64,000 nt of DNA from Trichodelitschia bisporula (Eukaryota; Ascomycota; Dothideomycetes; Phaeotrichales; Phaeotrichaceae): contig ML996689.1 of NCBI GenBank assembly GCA_010356995.1, positions 1,808,405 through 1,872,404 on the forward strand, written 5' to 3'. Below are positions 2,029 to 62,653 of the stretch, piece after piece. The translations under genes and the position numbers were made by a program. The stretch's first letter is position 1; each line of letters starts with the position of its first letter. Below the pieces are notes generated by a model. That model did not search any database, had not been told where the DNA came from, and worked only from the letters and a program-made list of their open reading frames with translations.

Positions 2029-2337
2029 ATGAAGATCACTGTCGTCGAGCACCTCTACGCCATGGACACAGAGCGCGAAGTTGGACGCCTTGCACGCTCT
2101 ACCAAGAAAAACGCCTTGCGCCATAAGATGCAGCAAGACATCAACGACTTGGCCCAGGACCTGATCGACGATCAGGAGGCCGTCATCGCGGCGCGCGAGG
2201 CTGCTGAAGAGGAAGTGGGCTTCAACTACAATGCGGTAAGTCACCCTAACGAACGACGACGTAAGACGTGTGCTGACAGCCGATAGCCGTTCGCTTATCG
2301 ACTCAAGATTTCCAGCAAAGGTGGCGAGATGGTCTAG
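2029..2337 (+). CDS. Small charged protein, tandem family member A (two exons)
   Basis: The proposed exons are 2029-2235 and 2287-2337, giving an 85-residue product. The intron starts GTAAGT and ends GATAG. The start is the first ATG (context CCAAAATG) after a pyrimidine-rich leader. The product is largely helical and highly charged (EREVGRLARSTKKNALRHKM, then Asp/Glu/Ala-rich), ending in a short basic exon-2 tail RLKISSKGGEMV. There is no signal peptide or known domain. The intron is nearly identical to that of the gene at 3344 (shared tract ACGAACGACGACGTA), and both exon-2 frames begin with Pro, which supports gene duplication and this splice choice. Function is unknown. Array 2 of the 37-bp repeat lies upstream. 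Confidence 0.6.
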
Positions 2338-2827
2338 GATGTTGGGATGCGGTACTTGGCATGTGATATGATGTGTCGACAAATCTAAAGCGCTCCAGCG
2401 TTTTGTTTCTCGTACATCTCCCTGAATCAAGCACTCTTTTTGGTCTCCTCAATTTCTTTTCTCAATCTGCGCGGCTTGACGTGACTCGTGCTTTCATATA
2501 TTGACTCGATCGCCCGGCGTGATATCCGAAGGCCATCGCTGGCGACGGCGGCGTATTATCGAAAGGCAGCATCCTGCTGCCCAAAGTATACCGTCTCGGT
2601 TCCAATAGCGCCGATTTCGTAAAGCCAGATGTCGTAAAGCCAGATTTCGTAAATCCAGACCTAGTGGCACATGTATCTGCACGTAAGGCATATACCAGCC
2701 CCACGAACCCGGAAGCCCCATCTCTTAGAGAGAACACAAGTGCGGGCCGGTGCGTGCGGGCCGGTGCGTACGGGGCTTCGCGGGGCTCTCGGATGCGGCG
2801 TTGCCTGCGCTCCGATGCTGATGTGCC

Positions 2828-2940
2828 GAATATGATATCCGTCCCATTTCTTTCGATTCTTGCCGAATATGGTGCCCGCCCAATCGCCCTGTGCTTTTGC
2901 TGACACCTGATATATGCCCCAACACCCTCCATACCCATTG
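2828..2940. repeat. Degenerate 37-bp tandem repeat, array 3 (about 3 units)
   Basis: Units begin at 2828, 2865 and 2902 (37, 37 and 39 bp). The first matches the first unit of array 2 almost perfectly (GAATATGATATCCGTCCCAT). The array ends in the same CCAACACCCTCCA tract as array 2 and stands about 400 bp upstream of the second family gene, so array and gene were duplicated together. Confidence 0.75.
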
Positions 2941-3140
2941 AGGGTAAGATATCACGTCTCATCACCCCCGAGAATGCCCCCAAGCCGCGTTGACGCCGCG
3001 GAAACATGAATACTCGTGAGGAAAAAGCCGCGCTCGCGGCGGCAAACCTACCACGAAGCCCGCATGCCTTCCGCATTTGAGTGCACGGAATACCGGAATT
3101 CCGCCCACAAAACGCTGCCCCCTTGGCGTCAACACTGTGC

Positions 3141-3148
3141 TATAAAAG
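3141..3148 (+). promoter_or_regulatory. TATA box of the gene at 3344
   Basis: TATAAAAG lies about 200 bp before the start codon. About 40 bp downstream begins a C/T- and A-rich leader, and a predicted 5'-UTR intron separates this leader from the ATG, so the spacing to the start of transcription is normal. Confidence 0.55.
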
Positions 3149-3343
3149 CCTGTACAGTTGTTCCCCAGCGCATTCTCTGCATCCACACGCATGTCCATCA
3201 ACCTGAAAATCTCCAATCTCGACCTTCTTTCAAGCTCCGTGAAACTCAACAACCCGAACAGGTAAGCAACCTCGTTGACGGCTTTAGAGCCCCCCCACGC
3301 CCAAGCAAGTCCGCAGACCAAGCTGCTAACAACCACCAGCAAC

Positions 3344-3635
3344 ATGGCCCCAGAGGGGTCATCCATGCAGACCACGGGGGTCTCTCGCCCTCGTGCGAAG
3401 GCTGCGACTCGGCGTATTCTCATCAAGGCGGAGGCTGCGATGAAAGTCAACAAGATTGAGGACGAGCAAGCTGCGGCTGCGGCTGCTGAAACAACTGGTC
3501 AGGAGTGGGATGGGACACTGCCGGTAAGTCATCCACGAACGACGACGTAGGAGGTGTGCTAACAGCCACTAGCCGCTGAAGCTTCGGATCTATGTTGGTG
3601 GTCCAGACCGCGTTCAGTGGACCATCGGGGTTTGA
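3344..3635 (+). CDS. Small charged protein, tandem family member B (two exons)
   Basis: The proposed exons are 3344-3523 and 3573-3635, giving an 80-residue product. The start ATG follows the acceptor of a predicted 5'-UTR intron directly. Exon 1 encodes a basic segment (RPRAKAATRRILIKAEAAMK), then an acidic and poly-Ala stretch. Exon 2 encodes LRIYVGGPDRVQW and a stop. The intron is nearly identical in sequence and position to that of the gene at 2029, and exon-2 reading frames agree, which marks the two as paralogues although exon 1 has diverged strongly. No known domain or signal peptide is visible. Rapid divergence of exon 1 against a conserved intron is unusual and could mean relaxed or diversifying selection. 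Confidence 0.6.
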
Positions 3636-4083
3636 AGATCCTCTTTGCTGCGAACATCATGAACTATTTTGAAGCGCTCTGGCGCAGATAGTTCTACGAC
3701 ATGGTTCACAATCAAGCTCCTGACCGGCTGTCCTGACCGGCTCTCTTATTCTGCGTGGCTTCCGTAACCTGTGCGGCTTGACATGACACTTCCTTTCGTA
3801 TATGTATACGTCCGCCCGGCGTGATATCGTAAGTCCATCGCCGGCGACGGCGACATGTTGTCGAAAGGTGGCATCCCGCAGCCCAAAGTATACAGTCTTA
3901 GTCCCGATGGCCTCAGTTTCGTAAATACCAGTCCCAGTGGCACATGCATCTACATGCCAGATATATACCCCAGGAACCCACAAGCCCCATCTCTTATATA
4001 GCACACAAGCCTTCACAAAAGACTCTCGTACCTCAAGTATAGCTCGCCGGCAGTGTGCCGCATGAGTCAAGTCTTGATCGTAG

Positions 4084-5554: not shown

Positions 5555-6065
5555 GTATGTGACACGGGCGGAAAAATAGTGAACTCTTCGTTAACAGTCG
5601 CCATGAGTAGGCACGCAGCTCAAACCCACTTCTGAACGTCCTCGACATCCGACCCGTCAAGGAAAGCTCGGGTTCGAAGGACAAGATGGCGGGATCAAGG
5701 ATGGAGGCGGAAGTGCGATGCCCATAGTTTGAAGCAATGAACATCATGCCCTGAACCCTGCCGTTTACAGCTTGTCGTGAGCCCTCCTGGGCAGCATGTA
5801 GGCGTCCATGGTGATTTGCCGAAACCATCATCATCGGTGGTGAAGTTCTCCAAAGTAGCTTTCGTCCGAAGCCATTGGAGCAAACTTCTGTCGTCCCAAG
5901 TCCTTTCAGATGCTCTAGTTCGGAACCGCATAATCGTGACTCCGCGCAGCGAAGTAGGTCCTCAACTCGCGCCGTCGCAAAAATCAAACCAGCATTCCAC
6001 CTTTTTCTATCTGCCACATCCTTTTCAACCACACCACCAACTCGAAAAACAGGACTCGCTCCAGG
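5555..6065. other. Intergenic region upstream of the 561-aa gene
   Basis: No gene is supported. The final 100 bp is A/C-rich leader sequence leading to the ATG at 6066. Open frames on the minus strand (5535-6386) are shadows of the neighbouring coding regions. Confidence 0.5.
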
Positions 6066-7751
6066 ATGGCTCGCAAGAAGCGCGCTAAGGGCGGGAAGAA
6101 GAAGAGTGGCGTTTCCGACGCCAATGAGAGTGCCCCTGACCACAGCAGCAACAGCCAGAACGGCGGCAGGGATACCGGGGCCAGTCATGATGCCTCCAGC
6201 AGCAACAACAACCACCACAATGCCGGCATCACTAACCCAACGGTGCCCACCCTGAGTTGGGAGCTTGTGAAGGCCTACTGCATCGCAGCATTCCCCCCCG
6301 AACACGGCGACTCCGAAGGTATGGCTCGCGGGATATACACGGGCGTCCATATGTATCTCGCGTGTTATCCGGATGCGGCGGGGCATGTGGAGGAGCTAGA
6401 ATCCGAAATGCGTTCCATCGTAAATTCCGGTTGGAAAATGGGGTCAGCTGGTAACGCGAAGACGAAGAGTCTTGCTCAAGTTCTTTTTGCGAAACTCATG
6501 GGTATCATGGGCATCCAGGTTAAGGACGCGACAACTGGTGAGAACCTCGTTGAAGATGGCAGAATTGCGGACCCAAAGGATCTCGCGGCTCTCTGGCAAG
6601 CCGTTGCGAACGAAGCGGCGAGTGGTGTCGATACCGGCCATGAAGTGCGCGCCGCAACTCCGGAAAACCCCCTGAGTCCCGCCGAAAACGCCTCCAATGA
6701 TGATCAAGCGTCGCCGACTACGGACGACCAGCATCGCGCGGACATCATCGCTCAACATCGCGCGGACATCATCGCTCAAAATCGCGCGCCCATCATCCTT
6801 CAACACCGTCTCGCTACCAATCTGGGAGCCAATGCCCCAACCAGCCACCAACGTCATGTTGTGGACGGCGAAGTTGTCCATGTCCCTATCAAGGACCGTC
6901 GTATTCGTCTTGACTTCCTTAATGATTGTGAGCTGCCCCGTCACTGGGATCGGCCGGGTTCAGGTACGATATATGGTCAACACACGACGTACTACGTCGT
7001 CGACCCGGGCACTGGTCTTCCTGTTCTACCGAATTCTCGGATGCCGGTCGATCGAGTGGCTCGCCGCGCTAGCATCCAGGAGGAAAGTGGGTTCGGGGGC
7101 GTCGAACGTCCAATTGCCGATGGAGAAGAGCGTGCCGATGTTGAAGTCCACGGTGAAGAGCTCGCTCGCCCTGGTGTTGAGTTTTCGGATGTTGAAGAGA
7201 GCACTGCAAGCCTCGGAGCCACCCTTGACAACACCCTTGACAACATATTAGCTCGCGCTGCTGAATTTGCGGCAATAGTAACCCAACTCCATACGGCTAG
7301 GAGTTCCGAGAGTGATGGGGAAGAATCGGCGTCCGTGGCTCACCACTCAGCTCCAGGTGGTGGGGTTACTGACGAGACAACCGAGAACGTGATTCCCTTT
7401 GACGACACATGGGCTCCAATTATCGAGTCCGTAGAAACACAAGGCCGCCCCTCCAGCAGTTCCGAGCGTGCTGTGGAAGAATCAGCGTCTGCGGCTCATC
7501 CATCAGCTCCAGGCGTTGGAGTTGCTGACGAGGAGACCACCGAGAACGCGATGACCTTTGACGACGAATGGGCTTACATTGTCGAGTCCGTGGAAACCCA
7601 AGACCCCCCTGTCGGCAGTTTCGAACGCGTTGAGGCACCGTCCGTGTCTGTCGCCTACACCCCTATGCCAGGAGGGTGGGTTAGCGACGGGGACACTACT
7701 GAGAGCGAGGATTGGGAGGCCATGGGCCCCACTCGGACTGGGACTTGGTAA
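6066..7751 (+). CDS. Hypothetical protein with two kinds of internal repeats, 561 aa
   Basis: No family recognised. A lysine-rich N-terminus (MARKKRAKGGKKK, possible nuclear signal) is followed by an Asn/Ser/His-rich linker. A globular-looking segment follows at about residues 60-165 (TLSWELVKAYCIAAFPPEHG ... VLFAKLMGIMGIQVKD). Near residues 222-247 there is an 8-residue tandem repeat QHRADIIA, QHRADIIA, QNRAPIIL. From about residue 419 to the end are three repeats of about 50 residues, each with E-E/P-S-A/V-S-x-A, a Pro-Gly turn, D-E/G-T-T-E, then an acidic DD-x-W-A box and ESVETQ in the first two. The frame is intact and intron-free. The acidic Trp-containing repeats could be protein-binding motifs; function is unknown. 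Confidence 0.65.
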   Translation: MARKKRAKGGKKKSGVSDANESAPDHSSNSQNGGRDTGASHDASSSNNNHHNAGITNPTVPTLSWELVKAYCIAAFPPEHGDSEGMARGIYTGVHMYLACYPDAAGHVEELESEMRSIVNSGWKMGSAGNAKTKSLAQVLFAKLMGIMGIQVKDATTGENLVEDGRIADPKDLAALWQAVANEAASGVDTGHEVRAATPENPLSPAENASNDDQASPTTDDQHRADIIAQHRADIIAQNRAPIILQHRLATNLGANAPTSHQRHVVDGEVVHVPIKDRRIRLDFLNDCELPRHWDRPGSGTIYGQHTTYYVVDPGTGLPVLPNSRMPVDRVARRASIQEESGFGGVERPIADGEERADVEVHGEELARPGVEFSDVEESTASLGATLDNTLDNILARAAEFAAIVTQLHTARSSESDGEESASVAHHSAPGGGVTDETTENVIPFDDTWAPIIESVETQGRPSSSSERAVEESASAAHPSAPGVGVADEETTENAMTFDDEWAYIVESVETQDPPVGSFERVEAPSVSVAYTPMPGGWVSDGDTTESEDWEAMGPTRTGTW

Positions 7752-9762
7752 AGGTTGGTGATGGGTCCGGAAGCGATGAGCCGGGTGGCTAACCTTTGCT
7801 AGGACATGACTGCAATGGGGTTCGAATGTCCGGGGTCCGGGCGTACAACCGATACAGAAAGGGGGGGAAAGCTGAAATGAGGGCGACTGAGTGAATAGTT
7901 AAGAAGGGCGCTTTGTGTTGTTCTTTGACCGTTCGACAGATGAGATCTGAATTCAGATGCTTCCGTCCATGGCTGGCAATTGACGTGATGACTTTGACAG
8001 AGTTAGCAGAAAGCATGAGAGTTGAATACAGTCAACACGCAACAAGGAAGGTCAACGAGATGACAAATCATGAGTAGGATTGAGTACGAGATGCTCGACG
8101 GCAGAGTATGAGATGCTCGACGGCAGCGTACAAGACGTCAAACCCGAATGGAGCTCACAGACGACAGATCCGGCCACCTGAATCGCTAACCCCGAGACCC
8201 CCCAACTCCAAGCTCACATCACGAGTTCCGATCAGCGCCAAAGACGGACGGCACGGAGAATGATGTCCTTGGTGCCAAAGCGACAGCCACAGAGTCTAAT
8301 AACTGCACCATTAAGACCACGGATGGGCGTCGCGCTTAGGCCAGTGCTGGTTGCCGGAGACACCAAGTCAACAGCTGCGTCGCCAAGTGCACGAAATTAA
8401 GAGCAGCAGCGACTCTGAGACGCAGAAAAACGCACCACCCGCTCTCAAATCCCATCGACCGAAATCGGATATTCCCATCAAGCATCGGCATTGCCGCCAC
8501 CACTGGGCGCGGCTGACAGCTCGGTCGCCTTCTGGAACCCTTCCTGAAGCGTGCGGGTGCAAAACGTGAAACACAAGGGGATGGGTCGCATTGGCTTTTC
8601 ATCTACTCGAAGCGTTTGCACCGCGAAGCCGGTCGGCCGTTGGAGATGATGGTGTGCGCAGCATGTAGGTGAAGGTGCTGCCGTGCCAAGTGGCCGCGAT
8701 GGACTCCAGGGCGGGTATCATCGACGTGCCAATGTGTGGGGAAATGGAGGGATACGAGAGGCTTCAATGGCAAATCACTAACATGGCTGCTACCGATCAG
8801 AACGGTGGGCGTGGGAAAAGGTGGAGGTGCATCACTGCGAGTCGTCGGACGTTTGAGGAAGACTCCTGGGCCGGCCCATTGTTTTTCCAGGGCCGCGACC
8901 ACAACACCAAGGCCAACACCAAGACGAACTGCATCACGGGAATCGGCAGGGGGCCATCGGCACAGACCATCGCCCACCGCTTCTTGCAGCCGAGGCGGGC
9001 CGTGTGCTCTGCGACGAGAAAGAGTTTCCTTATGCCTTGTCTATAGTGTTGTTCCTACCCGTGCTCTCTCAGCAAGGTGCCGAATTCCGAGAACGTGACA
9101 GCCGACCCAGCGATCCAACTCAGCTCGTCAGAGTGCCAGGACTCGAGTAAGGCTCAGTTCAGTTACACTTTTGGCCCTGGCTCCTTCATTTTTCCTCTAG
9201 AGTTTGGCTGTCCATTACTCTCACCTGTCAACCGCTAAGCTCAGTTCCTTGCCACAACCATCTCCAGCTAACCCAAGGCTCAGCCATACACCCACCAAGC
9301 ACCACAGTGTATCAGGTCACCTAACCCTCAAATGTCCACCGCAGACTCACATATACAGCGGCAAACTTCTAAATCGTAAAACGTGCAATCCATATTAACT
9401 CTCCCCGATTTTGGCTTCCCCATTCGCCGCCCCTGCCAGGCACCGTCCCAGCGCGCTGGTCGATCACGCACTCCCTTCCTACCGCCACCCATCGCGCGGC
9501 GGGATATGGCTTGTGCTTCTCCCCCCGTCCCATGCCATCCGTTGCACCCCGCAATATGGCCTGTGCAGCCTCGCCCCTCCACGCCCGGAAGCTGCGCAAC
9601 CGGCGACCAGGAACCGAAGTCCAGAAACCTATCTCCCATCTCCAGCGCTGTATATAACACCATGCCCTCCCTCCCTCTCTCCACATCCAGTCAAGCATCC
9701 CATTTAATCTTTCGTTTCTCTTACCCTCGTTACCAACCACATTCCATTCCATTCCATCCACC
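7752..9762. other. Two-kilobase gene-free spacer
   Basis: I see no convincing gene. Small frames at 8336-8977 (minus) and 8669-9098 (plus) overlap one another and show no domain. A 22-bp direct repeat, GAGATGCTCGACGGCAGNGT, occurs twice in tandem at 8088-8131. From about 9200 the DNA becomes C-rich and promoter-like, with TATATAACACC at about 9650, which would suit the peroxidase gene at 9763. Confidence 0.55.
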
Positions 9763-11153
9763 ATGCACCCCACTACCACCCTCCTCATCCTCCTCTCCTC
9801 CACCGCGGTGCAGGCCATCGCCTCCCCCTCCGTCCCAGACACACACCTCGCCGCCCGCCAGAACCGCGACGGGCGCCGTCCCGGCGACGGCGCCGGCGGC
9901 AACGGCCCCCGCCCCTCCGGCCCGTGGCCCAACCCCTCCGCCTTCCCCGGCGCCGGCTTCATCGGCCAAGGCCCGCCCGCACCTTCGGGTCGTCCCCAAG
10001 GCCAAAACCAGCAAGGCGGGCAACGCGACGGCGCCGCCGCGCCCAAGGGCCCGAACGGGCCACAGCCATCCCGCTCCCCGACCCCGTCTACCAAGCCCCC
10101 GACCGGCCCACCGCCCGGCGCCAGTTTCCCGGGCATGCCAAACTTTCCTGGCATGCCGGGTGGGTCGCCGAATATGCCTGGCGCGCCGAATATGCCTGGG
10201 GCTCCGCCGAAGGCGCCGGCGGGTGGATGTCCGGCTATTTGGTTCCAGATCAGTAAGGACTTGACGGGGGAGTTCAGTGATGGCGGGCAGTGCAATGATT
10301 TTGCGCGCGGGGCGATCAGGGCCGTGTTCCATGACTGCGGGGCGTGGAAGAAGAGTCTGGGGAATAATAACAATGCGGGGTGTGACGGGTCGCTGTTTCT
10401 TGCGAAGGAGGAATTGAGCAGGCCTGAGAATGCGGGGTTGACGGATATTGTGCCTAAGCTGGGGGCACTGGCGCAGAAGTATAATGTTGGTGTTGCGGAC
10501 TTCATCCAATTTGCAGGAGGTAAGTTTCTCCCTTCTCACGCAAGAGCTATTGAGCTAACCCCACCGCAGCCCATGCAGTCAAAACCTGCCCCCTCGGCCC
10601 AATCGTGCGCATCGGCGTCGGCCGCAAAGACAGCAGCGTCGCGAACCCACCCAACCTACTCCCCAACCCGAAAGCCTCCGGCGACTCCATCTTCCAGAAC
10701 TTCCAGGACAAGGGGTTCAGCGCCGTAGAGCTGGCCGCGCTAATCGGCGCGCACACTTCCGCGAAGCAGTTCGTCCAGGACCCGAGCAAGGCAGGTACTC
10801 CGCTGGATACCACGCCGGGGACGTGGGACGTGGTATGCACATTCCACACTTCACACTTGCAGCTGGGGCATGGCTAACGGGGATAGGCGTTCTACGGCCA
10901 GGTGCTCGACAAGTCAGCGCCGTTCATCCTGGCCTCTGACCAGGCGCTCTCACAGCAGGCTCAGGTCGGCCCGGCGTTCAAGGCGTTCGTCAATCAGCAG
11001 GCGGGGTGGAATGCGGCGTTTGCGCCGGCGATGAATAAGCTCGGCCTGTCTGGGGTTGATCCCGCCAGCCTGGTTGACTGCACGGCTGCGCTGCCGGGGG
11101 GTGGACCGCGGAAGTATATGGCGCGTCGGCAGGAGGAGGGGTTGCTGCGGTAG
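9763..11153 (+). CDS. Secreted haem peroxidase, class II (ligninase-like) type
   Basis: Exons 9763-10519, 10570-10832 and 10887-11153 give 428 residues. A signal peptide (about 1-20, TLLILLSSTAVQAIA) is followed by a proline/glycine-rich, low-complexity stretch to about residue 150, containing GMPNFPGMPGG-type repeats, and then a plant-type peroxidase domain. Distal Arg186 and His190 lie in RAVFHDC. The structural calcium/disulphide segment CDGSLFL follows. Proximal His314 lies in LIGAHTSAKQF. Splice site 1 restores AGAHAVKTCP, as expected for the family. The enzyme should use hydrogen peroxide to oxidise phenolic or similar substrates outside the cell. I see no certain Mn-binding site or surface-Trp assignment by eye. 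The long Pro-rich N-terminal linker is unusual for class II enzymes. Confidence 0.9.
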
Positions 11154-14022: not shown

Positions 14023-15296
14023 CTAAACCCCCCACACAACGCAGGTAGCCTGCTCCGCCCCCATCCGCATCTTCACCCGCGCAACCTCCTCATCAAAAAG
14101 ATCACTCCACCCATTCCTCTTCAACACCACCACCGCCCCACTCTTCTGCAGCGCAACCGCCATGAAAACCCCATCAGCGGACACCGCGAACGAGCGCGGG
14201 AACGAGCCACCGGCGCGCTGGAGCGGTTGTTTGACGAGTAGCCCCGAGGGCAGGATGGCATATGTCATGAGGCTGTCGACGGACGGGTTGCGGCCGAAGG
14301 ATGCGTCGTTGCGGTTGCTGACGATGAGGTTGGATTGGCCGAGGGTGTTGGTCTGCGTGGTCAGCTTCACGCTTTATTAACGAGAAGGGGGGGGGGGTGG
14401 GGAGGGAGTACCGTAATCGCAATCTCCGCCGGCGCAACCAGACTCGCCCCATCAGGCCCAACCAGCCTCTCCCTCCCCTCAGGCAACGTATCCCACCGCC
14501 CAACCTCATAAAACGCAATCTCCCGCTCCGAGCGATGGCTCACCACATACCCCGCCACATCCCCCGCCAACTCCCCAACCAGGTAAAACATATAATCCCC
14601 ATTCCCCATCGGCCCCGGCGAGAAAACACCATGCCTGGGCCCAGTACCCTTCGGCGTCTTCAGCGGCGCCAGCGGACTCAGCAGCCCATTCCCCTCCACG
14701 TAAAAAACGTGCACTTGATCGAATCCCAAATCCGGCACGAGCAGAAACCTGCCCGACGGATCCAGTAGCACCTGGTGCGGATGCGGCGCCTCCTGCCTCT
14801 GCGCAATCTTGCCCGTCTCAAACCCCCAGCCCTGCCGCTTGAAATCGAAGCTCTGCAACAACTCCAACTTCCCCTTCGCCCGGCGGTACGTCTGCAGTGC
14901 GCTCGCGCCGTAATGCGCGACCGCAACCGCACTCCCGTTGCCGAACACCACGGCCGAGACACCGCCCTGCAGCGCCTTGACCCGCGCTGTCTCTTCTAAG
15001 TTCCCGCCTGATTTGACGTCATAGGCGACGAGCGTGCCGTTCGGGCTCCCGCCGATGGCCTCGTCGACGAGGAACAGCGTATTGGACGCTTTGTCCAGCG
15101 TAAGCCAGGACGGGGAGTTGGTGCTCGTATTCAGCGCGCCAGTCTGACGTAGCGCGTACCCGCCGCCGGCGGGCTTAGGGCCGAACTCGAGGATGCTGAT
15201 GTTGCCAGCCCAGTTACCAGAGCTGTAAGAAGAGACGTAGAGCGGCGTAGCCGAAGCCAACTGGGAAACGAGCATGAGGGGCGCTACGAGCTGCAT
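14023..15296 (-). CDS. Secreted lactonase-type seven-bladed beta-propeller protein
   Basis: Exons on the minus strand are 15296-14412 and 14352-14023, with a 59-bp intron in phase 0, giving 404 residues. I chose the Met at 15296 because it opens a signal peptide (MQLVAPLMLVSQLASATPLY); a further in-frame ATG upstream would bury it. The protein has repeated propeller-blade strands, including the family hallmarks APHPHQVLLDPSGRFLLVPD and GPRHGVFSP, and a conserved SNR in the last exon. It belongs to the lactonase / 3-carboxy-cis,cis-muconate lactonising family (Pfam Lactonase), which opens or closes lactones or acts as a 6-phosphogluconolactonase relative. The secreted fungal members have no defined substrate. 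Confidence 0.85.
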
Positions 15297-15693
15297 TGTG
15301 TTGATGTTTGTGGGGTGTGGTGGGAGCGGAGCGGCGGGCCGGGCCATTTTTGTAGAACTAAATTAGGCGGGGGCAACGTGGCCGTGGCTCTTTCATTCTC
15401 GTGTGGGGCAGGAAGGCTGGGCGGCATTTCAGCCGCTCACGTGAGGAGCCTTGTGTGTGGTATTTCGGACGACATCACGACAAACACTGGCAATTGTCTG
15501 ATATCTATAGAGTCAAGATGACCCGGAAAAATGTTCTCGGGGTTTCCACACTGAATGGCCGGCGCGTCATGTTGCTGTTGTCTTCAACGCGTTTTCCTCA
15601 ATGTCTTCCTCTTCTCCACAACAGCACAACCATCCCCATTCATCTCCACCCCCCCCCATTCCCACATCCATTTGACTTGCATTAGCCTTCACC
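15297..15693. other. Divergent promoter between lactonase and IDO-like fusion gene
   Basis: This 397-bp head-to-head spacer has no gene. A C-rich leader with CACAACAGCACAACC runs up to the ATG at 15694. Shared upstream sequence could couple the two flanking genes. Confidence 0.5.
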
Positions 15694-18600
15694 ATGGCGT
15701 GGCACGCCGTAGAATTCACTTCGGTCCCACCCGAATATCCAAACACCCAATTCTACGACACCGCCGGCCCTCACCTCCCCCTCCCCGGTCTCGACCCTCC
15801 TCATCGCGGAGTCTTCGATCTCCCAGTCTCCTACCCTCCAGCTCCCGCCATAGCCTCCGGCTGTGACAAAAAGAACGCGACTCTGCATGCCTTCCACGTA
15901 ACCGCAGACCGAGGCTTCCTCCCGCGAGTAGACCCAGTCACCACCCTCCCCGCCGCCTTCTCGCCCCTAGAATCCCTCCTCCAGCGTCTCCCCATCCGCC
16001 GCGCCGACGGCACACCGGGACTCCTCGCCTCGCAGTCGCTCATCGACGCCGTCTTTTCGGAGTTGCCTGATCTGAGCGAAGAAATCGACACGCACGTAGC
16101 CGACTTGCCGCTGATGCTGGCGCTGTACCGCGACTACTCCTTCCTCGCGACTGCGTTCCTATTCGAGCCGTGCTTCACGCGGCGCCGCTCGAATCGGCAC
16201 TATGGAGTCGCACGCATGATGCTCCCGCCCTGCATCGCGCGTCCACTGGTCAAGCTAGCGCCGTTCTACAGCGAGGGCCCGACGAGTCCGAAGCCGTTCA
16301 TGGAGCACCTTGGTTCACTGGCTTTGTACAACTGGCTTTCGACCGGCGGGAAGAGCGTAGCACCGATTCGGTGGTTTGAGGACAACCGGCCTGGGTCGTG
16401 GGAGGCGGAGTACACGTCGCTCTATGTGAACCTCTATCGGAAGAGCACGGGTCTTGTGGCGATGGCGGTGAAAACCATTACCGGTGCCGCGAATGCCAAT
16501 GTGCTTGAGATGAAGTGGGCATTGGAGCGCCTCGAGGAGGTGCTCAAGGAGATTAACGGGCTCATGAAAGGTATGTCGCGCTCACCGAGGGGAGTGCACG
16601 CTAACGTTCCAGACATCTGGGTCTCCCGCATTGCCAAAGAGCGCCCCTCCTTCGCGACATTCCTCCTCAGCCTCGGCAGCCCGGGCATGTTTCCCTGCGG
16701 CGTGAGCTACGAAGGCGTACGCGAGGAAGCATACTTCTTCACCGGCGAAAACGGCGCGCACGACATTCTGGTACGTCCTCCCCATATCCCACTGAAGCTC
16801 CCCTGCTAACAGCCCAGTTTGCTACCGCCGCCGCGGTCCTGCAGATCCCTACACCCTCTTCCGCCGACCTCCCCGAGCTGACAGCAGATGCCGACTTCCA
16901 TGCCTTCCGCCCAGGCACGCACGGCAAATTCCTATCCTGGCTCTCCGGCGCCGCGGCGGTATTCAACGTCCGCTCCACCGCCATCGCCGACCTCTGCGCC
17001 GCGGACGCCTACGCGCGCTGCGTGGACCAGGTTCGCTCATACCAGTGGCGCCTGTGGTCGGTGCAAAAGGAGGCCTCTAGCTCGCGCAGCGATGCAGTCT
17101 CAGAGACGACTGAGGCCAAAGACCTGAACGCTACGCTGGAAGTCCTGATTGCCCTGGATGATCAACATCTGCTGCTGGGCCACTGGGAGGATAAGATTTC
17201 CACCATCCGTGCGCAAAAGGCGGCTCTTGAGATAGAGCGCTTTGGGGCGCGCGAGGCGGCGTCGCGCATGTATGAGTACATGTCTGCACGCGAGAATCAA
17301 AACGCTAAATATGAGGCTGTTGTGGACGAACAGGTTGAGCAACTGGCGAGGTGGAAGCTTGGAGAGAACGAGTACCTGGCAAAGAGGCGCGCGTGGAAGG
17401 AGAACGCTCCGACTAGGGCCGAGAGGCAGGAGCGCGCAGAGGAGAAGAACGAGGAGTGCATGCACGAGTTGAAGACTAGGGAGGCAGCTTGGGCTGGTGA
17501 CAAGGAAGCGGCGAGAGTGATCAAGAAATATGACGAGGGGCGGTTGAAAATTATCGCGCTGAGGTGGGAGGCCCGTGAGCGGAAGGCAAAGCAGCGGGAG
17601 TTGCAGATTAAGGGTGCATCGCAGAAGAAGAAAACGGAAGAGGAAAATCGCAAAAAGGAAGAGGCAGGCAAGGTCAAGACGGAAGAGGAGGGCATGGCCG
17701 AAAATGAGGAGGCGATGGCCGAGGACGAGGAGGAGATTCCCGAGGAAGAGGAGGCGATGTCCGAGGAAGAGGAGGACGATCACCGCATGGAAGAGGAGTA
17801 CGCCCTCCATATGGAAGAGGACGTTCTCCTCCGTATGGACGAGGAGGTGATGACCAAGGAAGAGTATAGCCGTCTCCGCCTGGAAGAGGCCATACGCGAC
17901 GACCTGGCAGAATCGCTTGCCTTCCAACGCAAGCTCGAGGAGTGGATCCAGCGGGGGGACGCAAGCAATCACTCAGAGAAGTGCGAGGAGGCCGGAACTC
18001 AGTTGGAGGCCGCAACGGAGGCGAATGATGATGAGTTCATGCAGCCTTCACTCGAGGGTGCTGCGGGGGCGGTTCAGCATGCCGCAGGGCCTTTCCAGTC
18101 CCCAGGGCCGTCCCAAGACGACTGCGCGCTTTACATCGATGCCCAAGTTGACGAGGACGGCAATGAGGAATGGAGCGCCGCGGACCCTTTTCACGACTCC
18201 AAGCAGCTGCTCCCCACGCCTGCTGCGCACGACCAAGACGATTTCGCGCTTGAAAGCGATGACTCCCCGGGCCCGTCCCAAGACGACTGCGTGCTTTACC
18301 GCAACCTTGAATCCGATGAGGAGAGTGATGACAGCGAGCATCTGTACTCCCCGGGGCCTTCGCAAGACAACTGTCGGCTTTACACTGGTGTTCAAGCTGA
18401 TGAGGAGGGTGATGACGAGGATACCAACGCCGCAGGACCTGTCCAGAGCGACCTCGTTATGCCGCTCATCGTGCTCAACGGCGATGCCGAAGTAGATGCT
18501 GAAGGTGACAATGAGGATCAAAACGCCGCGGGCTCTTCCGCGGACGACGCTCAGCAGGCGCTCCCGGCGCCCGTTGAGGACGGGGATGACGACTGGGCGG

Positions 18601-18797
18601 TTTCCAGCGACGATGAAGATGGTGCTTCTGTTAGCGTCAGCACTGAGGATAACGAAGAGGGCGGTGATGTTAGCCGCATCACTGAGGTTCATGAAGATGG
18701 TGACGGCATTGAGGATGACGAAGATGGTGATGATGTTAGCATCACCATTTCGGATTTTGAGGCGTGGTACGCTGGAGAGGGTGAAGACTATTTTTAG
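15694..18797 (+). CDS. IDO-like domain fused to an acidic coiled-coil repeat tail, 1004 aa
   Basis: Exons 15694-16570, 16613-16770 and 16818-18797 (introns 42 and 47 bp). Residues 1 to about 430 match indoleamine 2,3-dioxygenase, the haem enzyme that opens the tryptophan indole ring: YRDYSFLATAFLFEPC, then LPPCIARPLVKLA, SLALYNW, GVSYEGVREEAYFF, HGKFLSWL and DAYARCVDQVRSYQWRL. The human enzyme has its proximal haem ligand His346 in RSYH; here that residue is Gln421 (codon CAG at 17043). The glycine-rich SAGQS loop is also replaced (ENGAHD). IDO proteins are usually about 400-450 residues. This one continues in frame for about 570 more: a charged coiled coil (about 440-640), poly-Glu stretches, then three SPGPSQD-D/N-C-x-LY repeats in an Asp/Glu-rich tail. 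It is probably catalytically dead or altered; the fold assignment is firm, the role unknown. Confidence 0.8.
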
Positions 18798-24901: not shown

Positions 24902-27900
24902 ATGTCTACTCCAGCATCACAACCTCTGATGGTCGGTCCGGACACTCTCATCAGCGTCCGCATCTCGCTGCAGGGCATCACTCGTCGCTACAAGATGTCG
25001 CTGTCGGAGCTGACGCCTGACGTCCTCCCTGGCAAGGTGCGTCGCTAGCCGCCAGGCTGCAGCCTACCCCCGAAACTTGACCTCACCCAAAAAACTAACT
25101 TCACCAGCTTCGCACCCTTTTGGGCATTCCTGCCGACCGCGAGGTGCTGTTTGAGCGCTACTCCGACTCCGCTGCCGCCTACGTGGCTCTCGACCCCAAC
25201 GGCAGCTCGGCCAGCTACAAGACGTTGCACCGCGCCGCCAAGGCCAAGCTCAAGCTGCGCCTCAAGGCCACGGTTCCTGCGGGCGATGGCGACAATGATG
25301 CCGTGCCCTTTGTGCTCAAGAAGCATGTCGAAGCACCGGCGCAGATTCCGCTCTTCGATTGCGTTCCTGCACCGGCTGCGCCTCCCCCCACTTCACCTTC
25401 CGCCTCAACTGCTGAGGCGGAGGCCGCCCCAGTCGGTGCCACCCCACCTGCTCTTGGCACGCCCGAGGCCGAAGTCCAGCAGCAGCAGGAGCCGACACCA
25501 CCCAAGGAGCGTTCCGTCATGGAGCAGCTGCCGAACGGCGATGTGCGCATCGCGGTTGAGGACCTCCCCAAGGTAAACATGCACGTCCTCCGTAACCTGC
25601 TTCGGTCTCATTCGGAGCAGCTGCCCGTGCAGCTTCCACCGCGCGTGACGGCGCAGTCGACGTGGTCTGTCTTCTGCAACGTGTGCGATACACCCATGAT
25701 CAATGACCACTTCCACTGCAACACGTGCGACAACGGCGACTACGACCTGTGCCTTGAGTGCGTCGCCAAAGGCAAGCACTGCCTTGTCGACTCGCACTGG
25801 CTCGTCAAGCGTCGCATCGTCGACGGCAAGGTCGTGTGGAACTTCTCGGAGAAGCTGCGCAGCCGCTCGCTGGTTCAGCACGAGATGCCGGGCGCCTTCA
25901 CGGAGGACAAGAAGCCGGAGCCGGAAGAGCAGCGCACGTGCAACTGCTGTGTCACTGGTATGCTTTTTCGTAAATTTCGTGTTACGGGCGGAGCTCTAAT
26001 TACCATTTAGCCTACCCTGAGAGTCACATGTTCTTCTGCGCCGACTGCGCCGATTACGACCTCTGCACCCGCTGCTTCGAAGAGAATGAGCATGGTCACC
26101 ACCCAGGCCATACATTCCAGGCCGTCCGCATGGAGGGCGAGATGGCGGGCGCGCTCAAGAGCCTGTGCACCCCCGGTCGCGGTGTGCACCACCCGGCCAC
26201 TTGCGACGGCTGTGACAAGACCATCTGCGGCGTGCGCCACAAGTGCCTCAACTGTCCCGACTGGGACTACTGCTCCAAGTGCATCAAGGATGCAGCGAAG
26301 ACGCACCCGAAGCACCGCTTCGCGCCGCTGTATGAGGAGATTGCGGAGCCGCCGTACAACACAGTGCGCCACAACAACGTCTACTGCGACGGACCACTGT
26401 GCAAGACGGGTAACAAGACCATCCTCGGTGTCCGCTACCGCTGCGCCATCTGCCATGACACCGACTTCTGTGCCAACTGCGAGGCGAGCCCGCAGAACTT
26501 TCACAACCGCACGCACCCGCTCATCATGCTCAAGACACCAGTGGCCAACTTCAGCGTGACGACTATCGACGACACGAAGGAGCTGATCCGCGAGATGCAC
26601 CCGTACCGCTCGAATAACACCACGTCGCCGACGCGAACTATCGCTGAAATCCAGCCGACGGAGCCGAAGGCGGTGTCGGAGAAGATCAGGGTGTCGGACC
26701 TGCTGCAGAAGCCGGCTTCGGAGAAGATCAAGATCAAAGACCTTGTCCACCCTGTCGACACACCAGTGCCAGGCTCTGAGGGTCTGCAGGCATCCTTTGT
26801 GCGCGACACCATCGCCGACGGCACAGCTATGACGGTCGGTCAGCAGTTTGTGCAAGTGTGGACGCTGCGCAACCCCGGCCCGCTACCGTGGCCTGCCGGC
26901 TGCCGCGTGCGCTACATTGGCGGCGACAGCATGCTGAACATCGACATGAACCAAAACACCCATGCCGACATTTCTGCAGCGGCACAGAGCAACATCATCG
27001 AGCGCCCGGTCGAGGCCGGCGAGGAGATCTCGTTCCGCGTCGCCATGAAGGCCGACGGCCGTGAGGGCCTGCAGATTTCGTACTGGCGTCTCAAGACGCC
27101 GGACGGTGTGCCGTTTGGCCATCGTCTTTGGTGCCACATTACGGTGGCGAAGCCGGCCGCTGGCACCGCTCCTACGGCCGAGACGACACCCGCCCCTGAG
27201 CTCCTCAACAACATGCTACATCGTCGCGAGCAGCTGGAGGATCGCATGGCACGCCTAAACCGCAACCTTGTCGATAACCATCGCCGCTGGTGCGAGCAGT
27301 CGACGGCGAAGCGCGAGGCGCGGTTGGCTGAGCGCACCGAGGCCATGGCGCGTGCGCGCATGCTGCACAACCTTCACTCAACGATGCCCCCTGAGCTTGT
27401 TTCGGAGCACACACGGCGCATGCAGGCCCATCGCAAGATGGCGCTGCGAGGCCACGCAAAGCCGACGGACGACCAAGAGTCTGAAGTTGGTTCCTCCTTT
27501 GTCCCCCCCAGCGGCTGTCAGCGCCGCCAAAACCACGGCGAACTCAGTAAGGCGCGCCATGCTTCAACCCTCGATGCCTTGGACTCGGCGCGCGAGAAGG
27601 CTTTGGCCGCGAGATCGGCGATGACGGCCACGATGGAGGCCGAGCAGCGTGAAGGGCGTGTGGCGGACATGCGTGAGATGCAGAACCAGGTCCGTGAGAA
27701 GATGGCCGAGGCCCACATGCGTGAGGTTGCACGGGCAGCCCGCATGGAGGCTCTGCGCATGGCGGCGTCGCTGCCCACTCCCCCGAAGTGGGCGGCGAGG
27801 GAGCAGCAGAAAATGGACACCAAGGAAGCGGCGATCGCCCCGACTTTGGTTGGGTACCATCCGACGGAGATGGCCAACAATGCCCCTACCCAAGCTGAGG

Positions 27901-27993
27901 CTCCGCAGGTCGCAGAGGCTACGAATGAGGTTAAGCTGGTCGAGAAGGCGGCTGATGTTCCGGCTCCGGTTGTGGCTCCAGTTGCTGAACTGG

Positions 27994-28027
<34 letters not shown>

Positions 28028-28340
28028 TGCGATGGCGGCTGTGGCTGCTGCTGCGGCTGCGATTACGGCTGAGGCTGCTGCTGCGATGGCGGCTGCGGCT
28101 GAGGCTGCGGTTGCGAATGCGGCTCCCGCTGCGGCTCCGGTTGCCGAGCTTGCGGCTCCGGCTGAGGAGATGAAGAACGAGGCAGAACGCAGTGTTCCCC
28201 CCACCACGCCTCTTGTTGAGGACGTGTCTGACTCTGACACGTACGAGGAGCTCGACGCCGAGGACGAGACGTGGCAGACAGACGAGGAGTATGATATTCT
28301 GGACGCGAGCGACGAGGAGGCGCCTGTCGCGAAGAAGTAG
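24902..28340 (+). CDS. NBR1-type selective autophagy receptor, four ZZ fingers and FW domain
   Basis: Exons 24902-25036, 25108-25957 and 26011-28340 give 1104 residues. The order is: an N-terminal PB1-like segment (residues about 15-100); ZZ zinc fingers at about 230-275, 322-365, 386-435 and 450-495, each with paired C-x2-C motifs such as CNVCDTPM and CDGCDKTICG; then the Four-Tryptophan (NBR1) domain at about 590-710 (FVQVWTLRNPGPLPWPAGC ... ISYWRLKTPDG). A helical region, an Ala/Pro-rich repeat (about 977-1045) and an acidic C-terminus follow. That C-terminus carries two Atg8-binding (AIM/LIR) candidates, YEEL at 1073 and YDIL at 1089, both in Asp/Glu context. The protein should link cargo to Atg8 on the phagophore or vacuolar sorting vesicle. 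Exon 3 is continuous with exon 2 across a phase-1 intron that restores CNCCVTAYPES. Confidence 0.9.
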
Positions 28341-60412: not shown

Positions 60413-62653
60413 TCAAACCTCCTTTTTTAACACCATCAGGGCCAATCTTGCTGCAATGTTGTCCTCCACATCCTTCTCCCAGGCATCCCAAGTCTCGGAG
60501 GTATACTTTTTGAATGACTCATGTGGTCCCGGTTTGGATTGATATGTGCGGTGGAAAGCCGCTATCAACGCCGGGCATCCCACCAAGTCATCCCAGTCGT
60601 ACCACTTCCGGTCATCAGGCCAGCCTCTCCACTTCACCATGTACTGCAAGTACTCTCTTTTGCCCGTCAACGGGTCTTTCTTCCCCTTGAACACCCGCGA
60701 ATTCAAGACCTCTTCAACTTCCCACTCTGCTTCCCCCTCGTGCACTTCCAACGGGCCTGGCTCTTCCTCTTCTTGGCCCAAAACCGGGGGATCCGCGTGG
60801 TGCAGGAGCACCGGATGAAACCATGGGAAGATCTTGAACGAGGGAGGTAGCTCCAGCTTGACAGCGCTACCGTTCTTTCCAACGTCAATCACTTTGAACC
60901 GGCCCAGGTTGCGGTGGTCGAGCTTGCGGCTTGGACGGTTTGTTGCAACATTCCTTGCATCGAGCATAACCATGTCACCAACGCGGAACTCGGGCGCTGG
61001 GATGCGATGTCGATCCGCGTACTCCTTCTGCACAGCCTGAGCCCAGGCCATTTGATGCTTGAGTGTTTCGCGGACTTTGATGATGCGGCTGATGATGCGG
61101 TCAACTTGTTGTCGTGACAGCTTGTCCTTGAATGTCAAGTCCTGGTCGCCGGGCTCTGGCGGCTCAATTCCCCAACATGGCACGTAACCCTTGGTGGCCT
61201 CGAACGGGGCAAAACCGGTTGTCGCGGATACACTGGCGTTGGCCTCAAACTCGGCAATGGGCAAGTACGCGACCCAGTCGTCCATGGCAAAGTTGACGTA
61301 CGCCCTGAGGTAGGATTTCAACCAGCCGTTTGCCCTTTCCGTCTGACCATCGGTCTCGGGATAAAAGGCTGTCGACAGCTTTGGGGTTGTGCCAATCCTT
61401 TTGCAGAGGCGAGCCCAGAAGTGGGAGACGAACTGTGATCCGCGGTCGGAGATGATCGATCGGGGGTATCCTTCTTCTCGCCATATCCATTCGAGGAAGC
61501 GTGCAACCACGTACTCGGTCTCCAAGTTCTCCATTGCGATGAAGCGCTTTCGTTTGGAGAGACGGTCTACGACCACGAGAATGTGCTCGTAACGGACGCC
61601 GAGAAAAGTGCACACCGGCAATGGTGTGATGAAGTCGAGGGTGATATCTGTCCAGTATTGCGCAGGAATGGGGAACGGCTTGAGTAGGCCTTGCTTGCCT
61701 TCGGAGTATGGCTTGCTCATCTTGCAGCGCTGGCAGCCCTTGACCCAGTTTTGCACCGAGGCGTGCAGTCCAGGCCAGTAGTAGTGTCGGGAGATCTTGC
61801 CGTAGGTTGCTTCTCGACCAGCATGGCCGCCGACAGGGGAAGCGTGAGCTTGACGGAGGATTTCGACACGGGCACCGAGGGGAGCGAAGAGCTTTCCTGC
61901 GTGGTATAGTAGGTCCTGCCCATTGTAGGGGATGATCTCACAGGCGGCGAGCTCAAGCTTCGTAGTACCAGCAATGAGATCGGAAGGGAGTCGACGCGTG
62001 CCGCTGCGCTCGGCGTCGATGATTCGCTGGAGGTTCCCGTCGTTTTCGTACTCGGCAAGGACAAGATCGTGGACCGATGGGGGAAGGGGCTCGCGTTCGT
62101 CGTCCTCGGCGGATAGGACCATGAGCAGCGCCGTTGCCTGAAGACTGGACATTTCCGGCTCCTGTTCCATCAGCAAAATGGAGGCGAGGCGGACCGCCGT
62201 GTGCGAGGATGTCGAAGCGTCCCTGTTGCGGGCTTGAATCATTTCCGGCTTGAGCACCGTCTGGCGCATGTACTGCGAGCGCGGGTCTTCTGGACCGGGA
62301 AGGAAGGTGGAGTGGCGGGTGAGGCTATCAGGCTTGGTGCTGAGCCTGCCCGGCCGATGGATGATTCGAAAGTTGAACTCCGATAGAAACTCTGCCCAGC
62401 GCGCTTGTCGCCTGGTGAGGTCCTTGGACGACATGAACCATTCGAGATTGCGGTGATCGGAGAGGATACGGATGGGATCCTCAGGGCGATTGCCGGACAG
62501 CTCAGGGCGCCATTCTTCAAAAGCGCGGATGATGGCCAGCAGTTCCTTGTCGTAGATTTCGTAGTTGCACTCCGCTGGGCTCATCTTTTTGCTCATGAAC
62601 GCCACGGGGTGCAATTGTTGGAAAGCGGTGGCTGTGTTCAGCCTTACCCAGGT
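60413..62653 (-). mobile_element. Ty3/Gypsy chromovirus pol fragment: RNase H, integrase, chromodomain
   Basis: A 733-residue open frame (first codon with family likeness about 62614; open to 62653) reads as the second half of Pol. RNase H: LHPVAFMSKKMSPAECNYEI and YDKELLAIIRAFEEW. Integrase HHCC zinc finger: HASPVGGHAGREATY ... CQRCKMSK. Core DDE residues: the Asp of WTDITLDFITP, the Asp of IISDRGSQFVS and the Glu in YPETDGQTERANGW. C-terminal chromodomain: LQYMVKWRGWPDDRKWYDWD. There are no stops or frameshifts, and C-to-T decay is not obvious. Gag, protease and reverse transcriptase are missing: upstream of 62614 the frame is disrupted within about 40 bp. The element is thus 5'-truncated or was interrupted. 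Confidence 0.93.

Follow-up and report, generated by a model that had tools for sequence, protein, structure and literature searches.

A gene at positions 15694-18797 of the forward strand in the window (the whole 64,000-nucleotide stretch of DNA analysed) appears to encode an indoleamine 2,3-dioxygenase (IDO) of the gamma type that has lost its haem apparatus. Residues ~60 to 493 of the 1004-amino acid product correspond to a derived IDO-gamma domain, and a tail of ~511 extra residues begins at the natural gamma C-terminus. The sequence gives good support to a loss of the chemistry. The fuller reading that we favor, for which we judge the chances to be about even, is that this protein is a haem-less IDO-gamma pseudoenzyme and probably a protein-binding factor. 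Protein binding is suggested because the small domain is better kept than the rest of the IDO region, and because the tail is repetitive and acidic.

The gene span given in a preliminary description of this locus was confirmed, as was its claim of one fused, stop-free frame leading into the tail. We distinguish three exons. Exon 1 (15694-16570) encodes residues 1 to 292, which include an N-terminal stretch of ~59 amino acids without gamma homology, the small domain (60-232) and the start of the large domain. Exon 2 (16613-16770) continues the large domain and carries Ala307 (codon at 16654), in the column of human Arg231, and the loop ENGAHD (338-343). Exon 3 (16818-18797) contains the C-terminal part of the IDO domain (16818-17261, residues 346-493, with Ala350 at 16830, Gln421 at 17043, Leu424 at 17052 and a lost TGG loop) and the entire tail in one frame without a stop until 18795-18797. 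The introns between them, also on the plus strand, are 42 nucleotides (16571-16612, GTATGT..CTAAC..CAG) and 47 nucleotides (16771-16817, GTACGT..CTAAC..CAG) in length, and removal of either leaves a junction that is ungapped in alignment with gamma relatives. Intron 1 is itself stop-free, and its retention would add 14 residues. The first two-thirds of the domain are joined to exon 3 through removal of intron 2, whose signals fit and across which the protein alignment is ungapped. A scan of the whole gene for intron signals yielded six candidates, namely these two and four overlapping alternatives. The tail contains no intron with the scanned consensus signals, and introns with other signals would escape such a scan. 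The context of the start codon (ATG) is CACCATGG.

When scored with codon statistics taken from seven further presumed genes in the window, the proposed frame is the best of the six in 12 of 13 segments, each 75 codons long and together covering residues 1-975. Only residues 1-75 depart from this, and their coding score is the weakest. In simulations of drift on the first 490 codons, which follow a rough model, the mean number of stops was 9.8 at 45% identity and 11.5 at 35%, and not one of the 500 runs made for each level stayed free of stops. The stop-free frame, in-frame repeats and consensus introns argue for a translated gene, although its constraint may have been relaxed recently.

Membership in the IDO superfamily is indicated by a match to the Pfam IDO model (PF01231) at 41.3 bits, compared with a curated cut-off of 26 (E = 1.1e-10, residues 64-419). 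A protein search with the domain found 15 relatives among ~8000 candidates scored, and a second search, started from an alignment, found 8 proteins among ~8000 candidates scored, all of them within the same 15. Two relatives, P0001 of Mycena amicta and P0002 of Lophium mytilinum, are named "indoleamine 2,3-dioxygenase gamma type". We aligned the 12 full-length gamma relatives, leaving out P0013 and P0014, which are too short for the haem helix, and P0015, a distant IDO with its own His in the corresponding motif. The domain is 31-38% identical to these 12 sequences over its length to the natural C-terminus and 17% identical to the canonical IDO that this genome carries on contig C16, and is therefore closer to the gamma type, which the preliminary description had missed. 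It also shares with P0001 and P0002 the loop frame GE-x-GA-x-D and a sequence signature of the gamma small domain. In a tree of the gammas with the C16 protein as the sole alpha/beta-side sequence, the position of the gene among the gammas has low support (51). The alignment with P0001 runs in frame to the last residue of that protein, at 17261. A predicted structure for the read-through of exons 1 and 2 has a mean pLDDT of 58 (75-96 over residues 81-160), and the 50 PDB matches listed for it are IDO1 or IDO2, with TM scores of 0.32-0.41. According to the accessible text of PMC4191572, IDO-gamma is an enzyme of low catalytic efficiency in Pezizomycotina, and low-efficiency IDOs are conserved despite degrading tryptophan poorly, in a role described as not well understood. 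The step from such an enzyme to a dead one is thus shorter than it had seemed.

In this gene, the residues that bind haem in IDOs and the counterpart of human Arg231 are replaced. The segment from R418 to W425 aligns without gaps to the gammas (RSYQWRLW here, RDFRWRHW in P0001), and Leu424 occupies the column of the axial haem ligand, human H346, which is His in 12/12 aligned gammas and in the C16 IDO. The preliminary description had correctly recognized that the axial His is absent, but had assigned its position to Gln421, three positions out of register. RSYQ resembles human RSYH by chance, since both the ungapped 12-sequence alignment and a profile alignment with human IDO1 put Gln421 in the Arg343 column, and all 12 gammas carry their His three residues further on. 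Arg343 and Asp274, whose column holds Ala350, are intact in 12/12 gammas and in the C16 IDO. The same is true of Arg231, which is needed for substrate binding and activity (Ala307 here), and of S263 (Asn339). Tyr240 stands in the F163 column, where one identical residue is found across 12/12 gammas. Tyr244 is in the S167 column, which is His in 12/12 aligned gammas. The TGG loop, identical in 12/12 gammas, has become TTE, a change in two of three letters. The human columns show the same pairing with human IDO1 in the PDB profile alignment; the human numbers R231, S263, F163 and S167 are partly presumed. Mutants of His346 are reported to lose haem and activity, and Asp274 to form a salt bridge with Arg343, the pair holding a haem propionate (accessible text of PMC6072487).

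The codons for Leu424 (CTG) and Ala307 (GCG) are two substitutions away from any His or Arg codon, respectively, and a single-base error therefore does not explain either residue; the codons for Ala350 and Gln421 lie a single substitution from Asp and Arg codons. The loop ENGAHD, previously contrasted with human SAGQS, is indeed changed, but the better comparator is ESGAND, invariant in the 12 aligned gammas. Because just two of six residues differ from ESGAND, most of the difference from SAGQS is ancestral and a trait of the gamma type. By its sequence the protein is a pseudoenzyme in the sense of a homologue of an enzyme without the catalytic or cofactor residues, and haem-based oxidation of tryptophan has very probably been lost. 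The earlier proposal of a catalytically dead IDO relative with a tail stands on stronger grounds, given changes at the His, the Asp274-Arg343 pair, Arg231 and TGG. Of the two roles then offered, adaptor or sensor, that of an adaptor would fit the better-kept small domain, whereas sensing of haem is unlikely now that the residues holding it have been lost.

Conservation is uneven along the domain, and the earlier phrase "intact in layout" suits the small domain but not the large one, which is degenerate. The 12 gammas share 127 invariant positions, not counting the initiator Met, and 66 of these are kept here: 36/46 in the small domain (60-232), 16/36 in residues 233-345 and 14/45 in residues 346-490. 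The boundary between the small and large domains is a presumed one. The small domain is better preserved than the large, haem-binding domain (36/46 versus 30/81; Fisher p = 8e-6, for columns that are not independent). Identity among gammas is similar in all three parts (0.48-0.59, four comparison sequences), which implies that the small domain is not simply slower-evolving. Part by part, the branch of this gene measures 1.18, 3.34 and 4.14 on a fixed tree, with 4.2, 4.5 and 5.1 for the remaining tree, and even the small-domain branch of 1.18 is the longest tip (others are 0.02-0.39). Identity relative to that among gammas, in windows of 30 residues, is 0.83-1.16 over residues 60-209 and 0.50-0.68 over 210-389. 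It then reaches 0.97 at 390-419, falls to 0.26 at 420-449, where the haem helix and TGG loop lie, and continues at 0.69 and 0.47. Exon shuffling was rejected as the source of this pattern, as the drop occurs near residue 210, inside exon 1, which extends to residue 292. Nor is there support for the haem pocket having been lost in preference to the rest of the large domain (9/12 pocket versus 42/69 other columns lost, p = 0.28); against all other columns the comparison is 9/12 versus 52/115 (p = 0.047). As regards a selected non-catalytic function, uneven constraint and an intact frame are observed, from a single sequence.

The tail was previously described as ~570 residues of coiled coil with repeats. 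A long tail is real, but ~511 amino acids lie past the IDO homology. Its first part (17262-18029 (+), residues 494-749) is charged and predicted helical, with Glu-rich repeats of 21-24 nucleotides at 17681-17889. The second part (18030-18797 (+)) is acidic and predicted disordered (750-988), followed by a short helix (989-996). The net charge of residues 500-1004 is -101 (K+R minus D+E). An AlphaFold2 model of exon 3 (mean pLDDT 62) contains helices up to residue 749, has low confidence over ~750-988 and ends with the short helix, and it has no tail fold match in the PDB at E below 1 (best E 1.0). Helices are thus predicted, but coiled coil finds weak support at best: in the three helical stretches, 617, 699 and 875 of 1000 shuffled sequences had an a/d heptad register at least as good as the best one observed. 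Two of 32 periodicity tests gave low values (residues 727-749 at a period of 3.5, 24/1000; residues 574-642 at 3.67, 13/1000). The tail is better described as charged helix than as coiled coil.

The three SPGPSQD[D/N]C-x-LY repeats noted in the preliminary description are present at residues 773, 828 and 856 (18099-18383 (+), with copies starting at 18099, 18264 and 18348), and a degenerate fourth copy is found in the DNA at 18219. Searched as DNA, the pattern PGPSQD[D/N]C has three matches in the 25.65-Mb genome, all in this tail, whereas the control has 0. Six repeat families, which overlap, occur in the tail, and the distance from one copy to the next is divisible by three in 19 of 19 cases, which looks like a pattern of frame-preserving growth in translated sequence. 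No paralogue of the tail was detected in the organism's own genome among 7 candidates scored. The preliminary description had called for homologues with the same fusion, and a full-length search (words from the first 500 residues, ~8000 candidates) returned none at E 0.001; this is weak evidence, as none of the three protein searches returned the gene itself.

The main rival to our reading is that the gene is in decay. An unneeded gamma gene would be eroding in its large domain, would have lost its original stop, and would now read into a functionless repeat expansion. The loss of almost half of the gamma-invariant positions (66/127 kept), a long branch in every part of the domain, a tail rich in repeats and the failure to find a homologous fusion among ~8000 candidates all agree with such a history. 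However, there are 0 stops or frameshifts in 1004 codons, compared with ~10-12 stops expected under drift in the first 490, and the small domain remains close to gamma-level identity; the repeats are all in frame and the introns have consensus signals. We regard decay as rather unlikely, though it is the strongest of the alternatives. The domain might instead have been repurposed to bind or convert a ligand, with some other small molecule or a metal in the pocket and the tail as output. This is compatible with overall retention of the domain to its C-terminus and with the polar or aromatic residues newly present at pocket positions (Tyr240, Tyr244, Asn339 and His342). Yet the large domain is degraded throughout, with the lowest ratio, 0.26, where the haem helix and the TGG loop lie, and a new conserved site cannot be inferred from a single sequence, so we consider repurposing improbable.

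We find it harder still to credit an artefact of the gene model, in which two genes or an unseen intron would make the tail separate from the IDO protein. The link between the first two-thirds of the domain and exon 3 does depend on the predicted 47-nucleotide intron, but a single exon and a single stop-free frame hold both the C-terminal end of the IDO domain and the tail, P0001 can be aligned up to its final residue in the frame of the tail, and the tail lacks the scanned intron consensus. A frameshift concealing a normal C-terminus was also rejected, since six-frame tblastn recovered just a chance-level match of 8 residues to HPTATGGS in another frame (17204-17227, E 3.5-6.8), with a stop following. 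Several observations count against the haem-less, protein-binding pseudoenzyme that we prefer: its small-domain branch is the longest tip, its pocket was not lost preferentially, residues 1-75 have a poor coding score, and the tail has neither a homologue in its own genome nor a fold match in the PDB.

The canonical IDO of the same genome (L005 on contig C16, ~2138-3690) has a predicted length of 503 amino acids, one 49-nucleotide intron and its own C-terminal stretch past the TGG loop. It belongs to the same superfamily (PF01231, 408 bits) but, unlike the gene described here, it keeps the columns of human F163, S167, R231, S263, D274, R343 and H346. Its TGG motif is present, and the alignment puts TGG in other columns. 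On contig C24, a 44-amino acid stretch (L006:1933-2064 (-)) is 66% identical to the C16 IDO and is probably a gene fragment, as a search of the 4-kb locus did not find the remainder of such a gene. Within the window, the neighbor of the IDO gene (14367-15362 (-)) encodes a 7-bladed lactonase-like protein (PF10282, E = 3.2e-42), and a haem peroxidase-type gene (9658-10728 (+); PF00141, E = 5.4e-9) has a Pro/Gly-rich N-terminal stretch. A long open frame at 5958-7751 (+) has internal repeats (QHRADIIAQ and SAPG..VETQ units), and 6051-7748 has no match in Pfam. Other features are an NBR1-type protein with an Ig-like domain and three ZZ-finger matches (25974-28340 (+)) and a Ty3-type retrotransposon frame with RNase H, integrase and chromodomain matches (60413-62653 (-)).

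If the haem-less pseudoenzyme reading is correct, an IDO-gamma gene gave rise to a protein that would bind no haem and oxidize no tryptophan. Its small domain could act as a protein-binding module, with the large-domain remnant as a frame, and the acidic tail, in which the peptide SPGPSQD[D/N]C-x-LY recurs, could be a multivalent docking or charge platform. The canonical C16 IDO would do the chemistry and could supply the pathway. The protein would then operate permanently in an "apo" mode, as mammalian apo-IDO1 is described to do and as has been proposed for IDO2. Signalling by apo-IDO has precedent (PMC11593294, PMC6072487), and in the accessible text of PMC8097162 and PMC11593294, IDO2 and apo-IDO1 are credited with haem-independent signalling, and IDO2 is called a sort of pseudoenzyme and likened to a frozen apo-form. 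We intend this as a comparison of how the proteins may work, not as a claim of common ancestry of function. The likeness also has limits, in that crystal structures of IDO2 with L-Trp exist, by the titles of the PDB entries matched, whereas the haem-ligand column is lost here, and those portions of the two papers describe no comparable tail. Typical fungal gammas such as P0001 and P0002 also differ from this protein, which lacks the equivalents of the axial His, Arg343, Asp274 and Arg231 as well as TGG, has a degenerate large domain and adds the tail. No IDO without the haem ligand or with a tail is described in the literature covered, which was largely non-subscription and included passages of PMC4191572, PMC6072487, PMC8097162, PMC5786828 and PMC11593294.

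A bolder proposal, which we offer tentatively and with appreciably less confidence than the pseudoenzyme reading itself, is that the haem domain is collapsing, whereas the haem-free small domain, still close to the constraint seen in gammas, has its own selected function that has outlived the enzyme and is itself tethered to an acidic repeat tail as a non-animal counterpart of apo-IDO signalling. If true, a naturally occurring IDO with its haem apparatus gone and its small domain preserved would argue for a non-catalytic role of that domain, and would provide a fungal test case for haem-independent IDO action.
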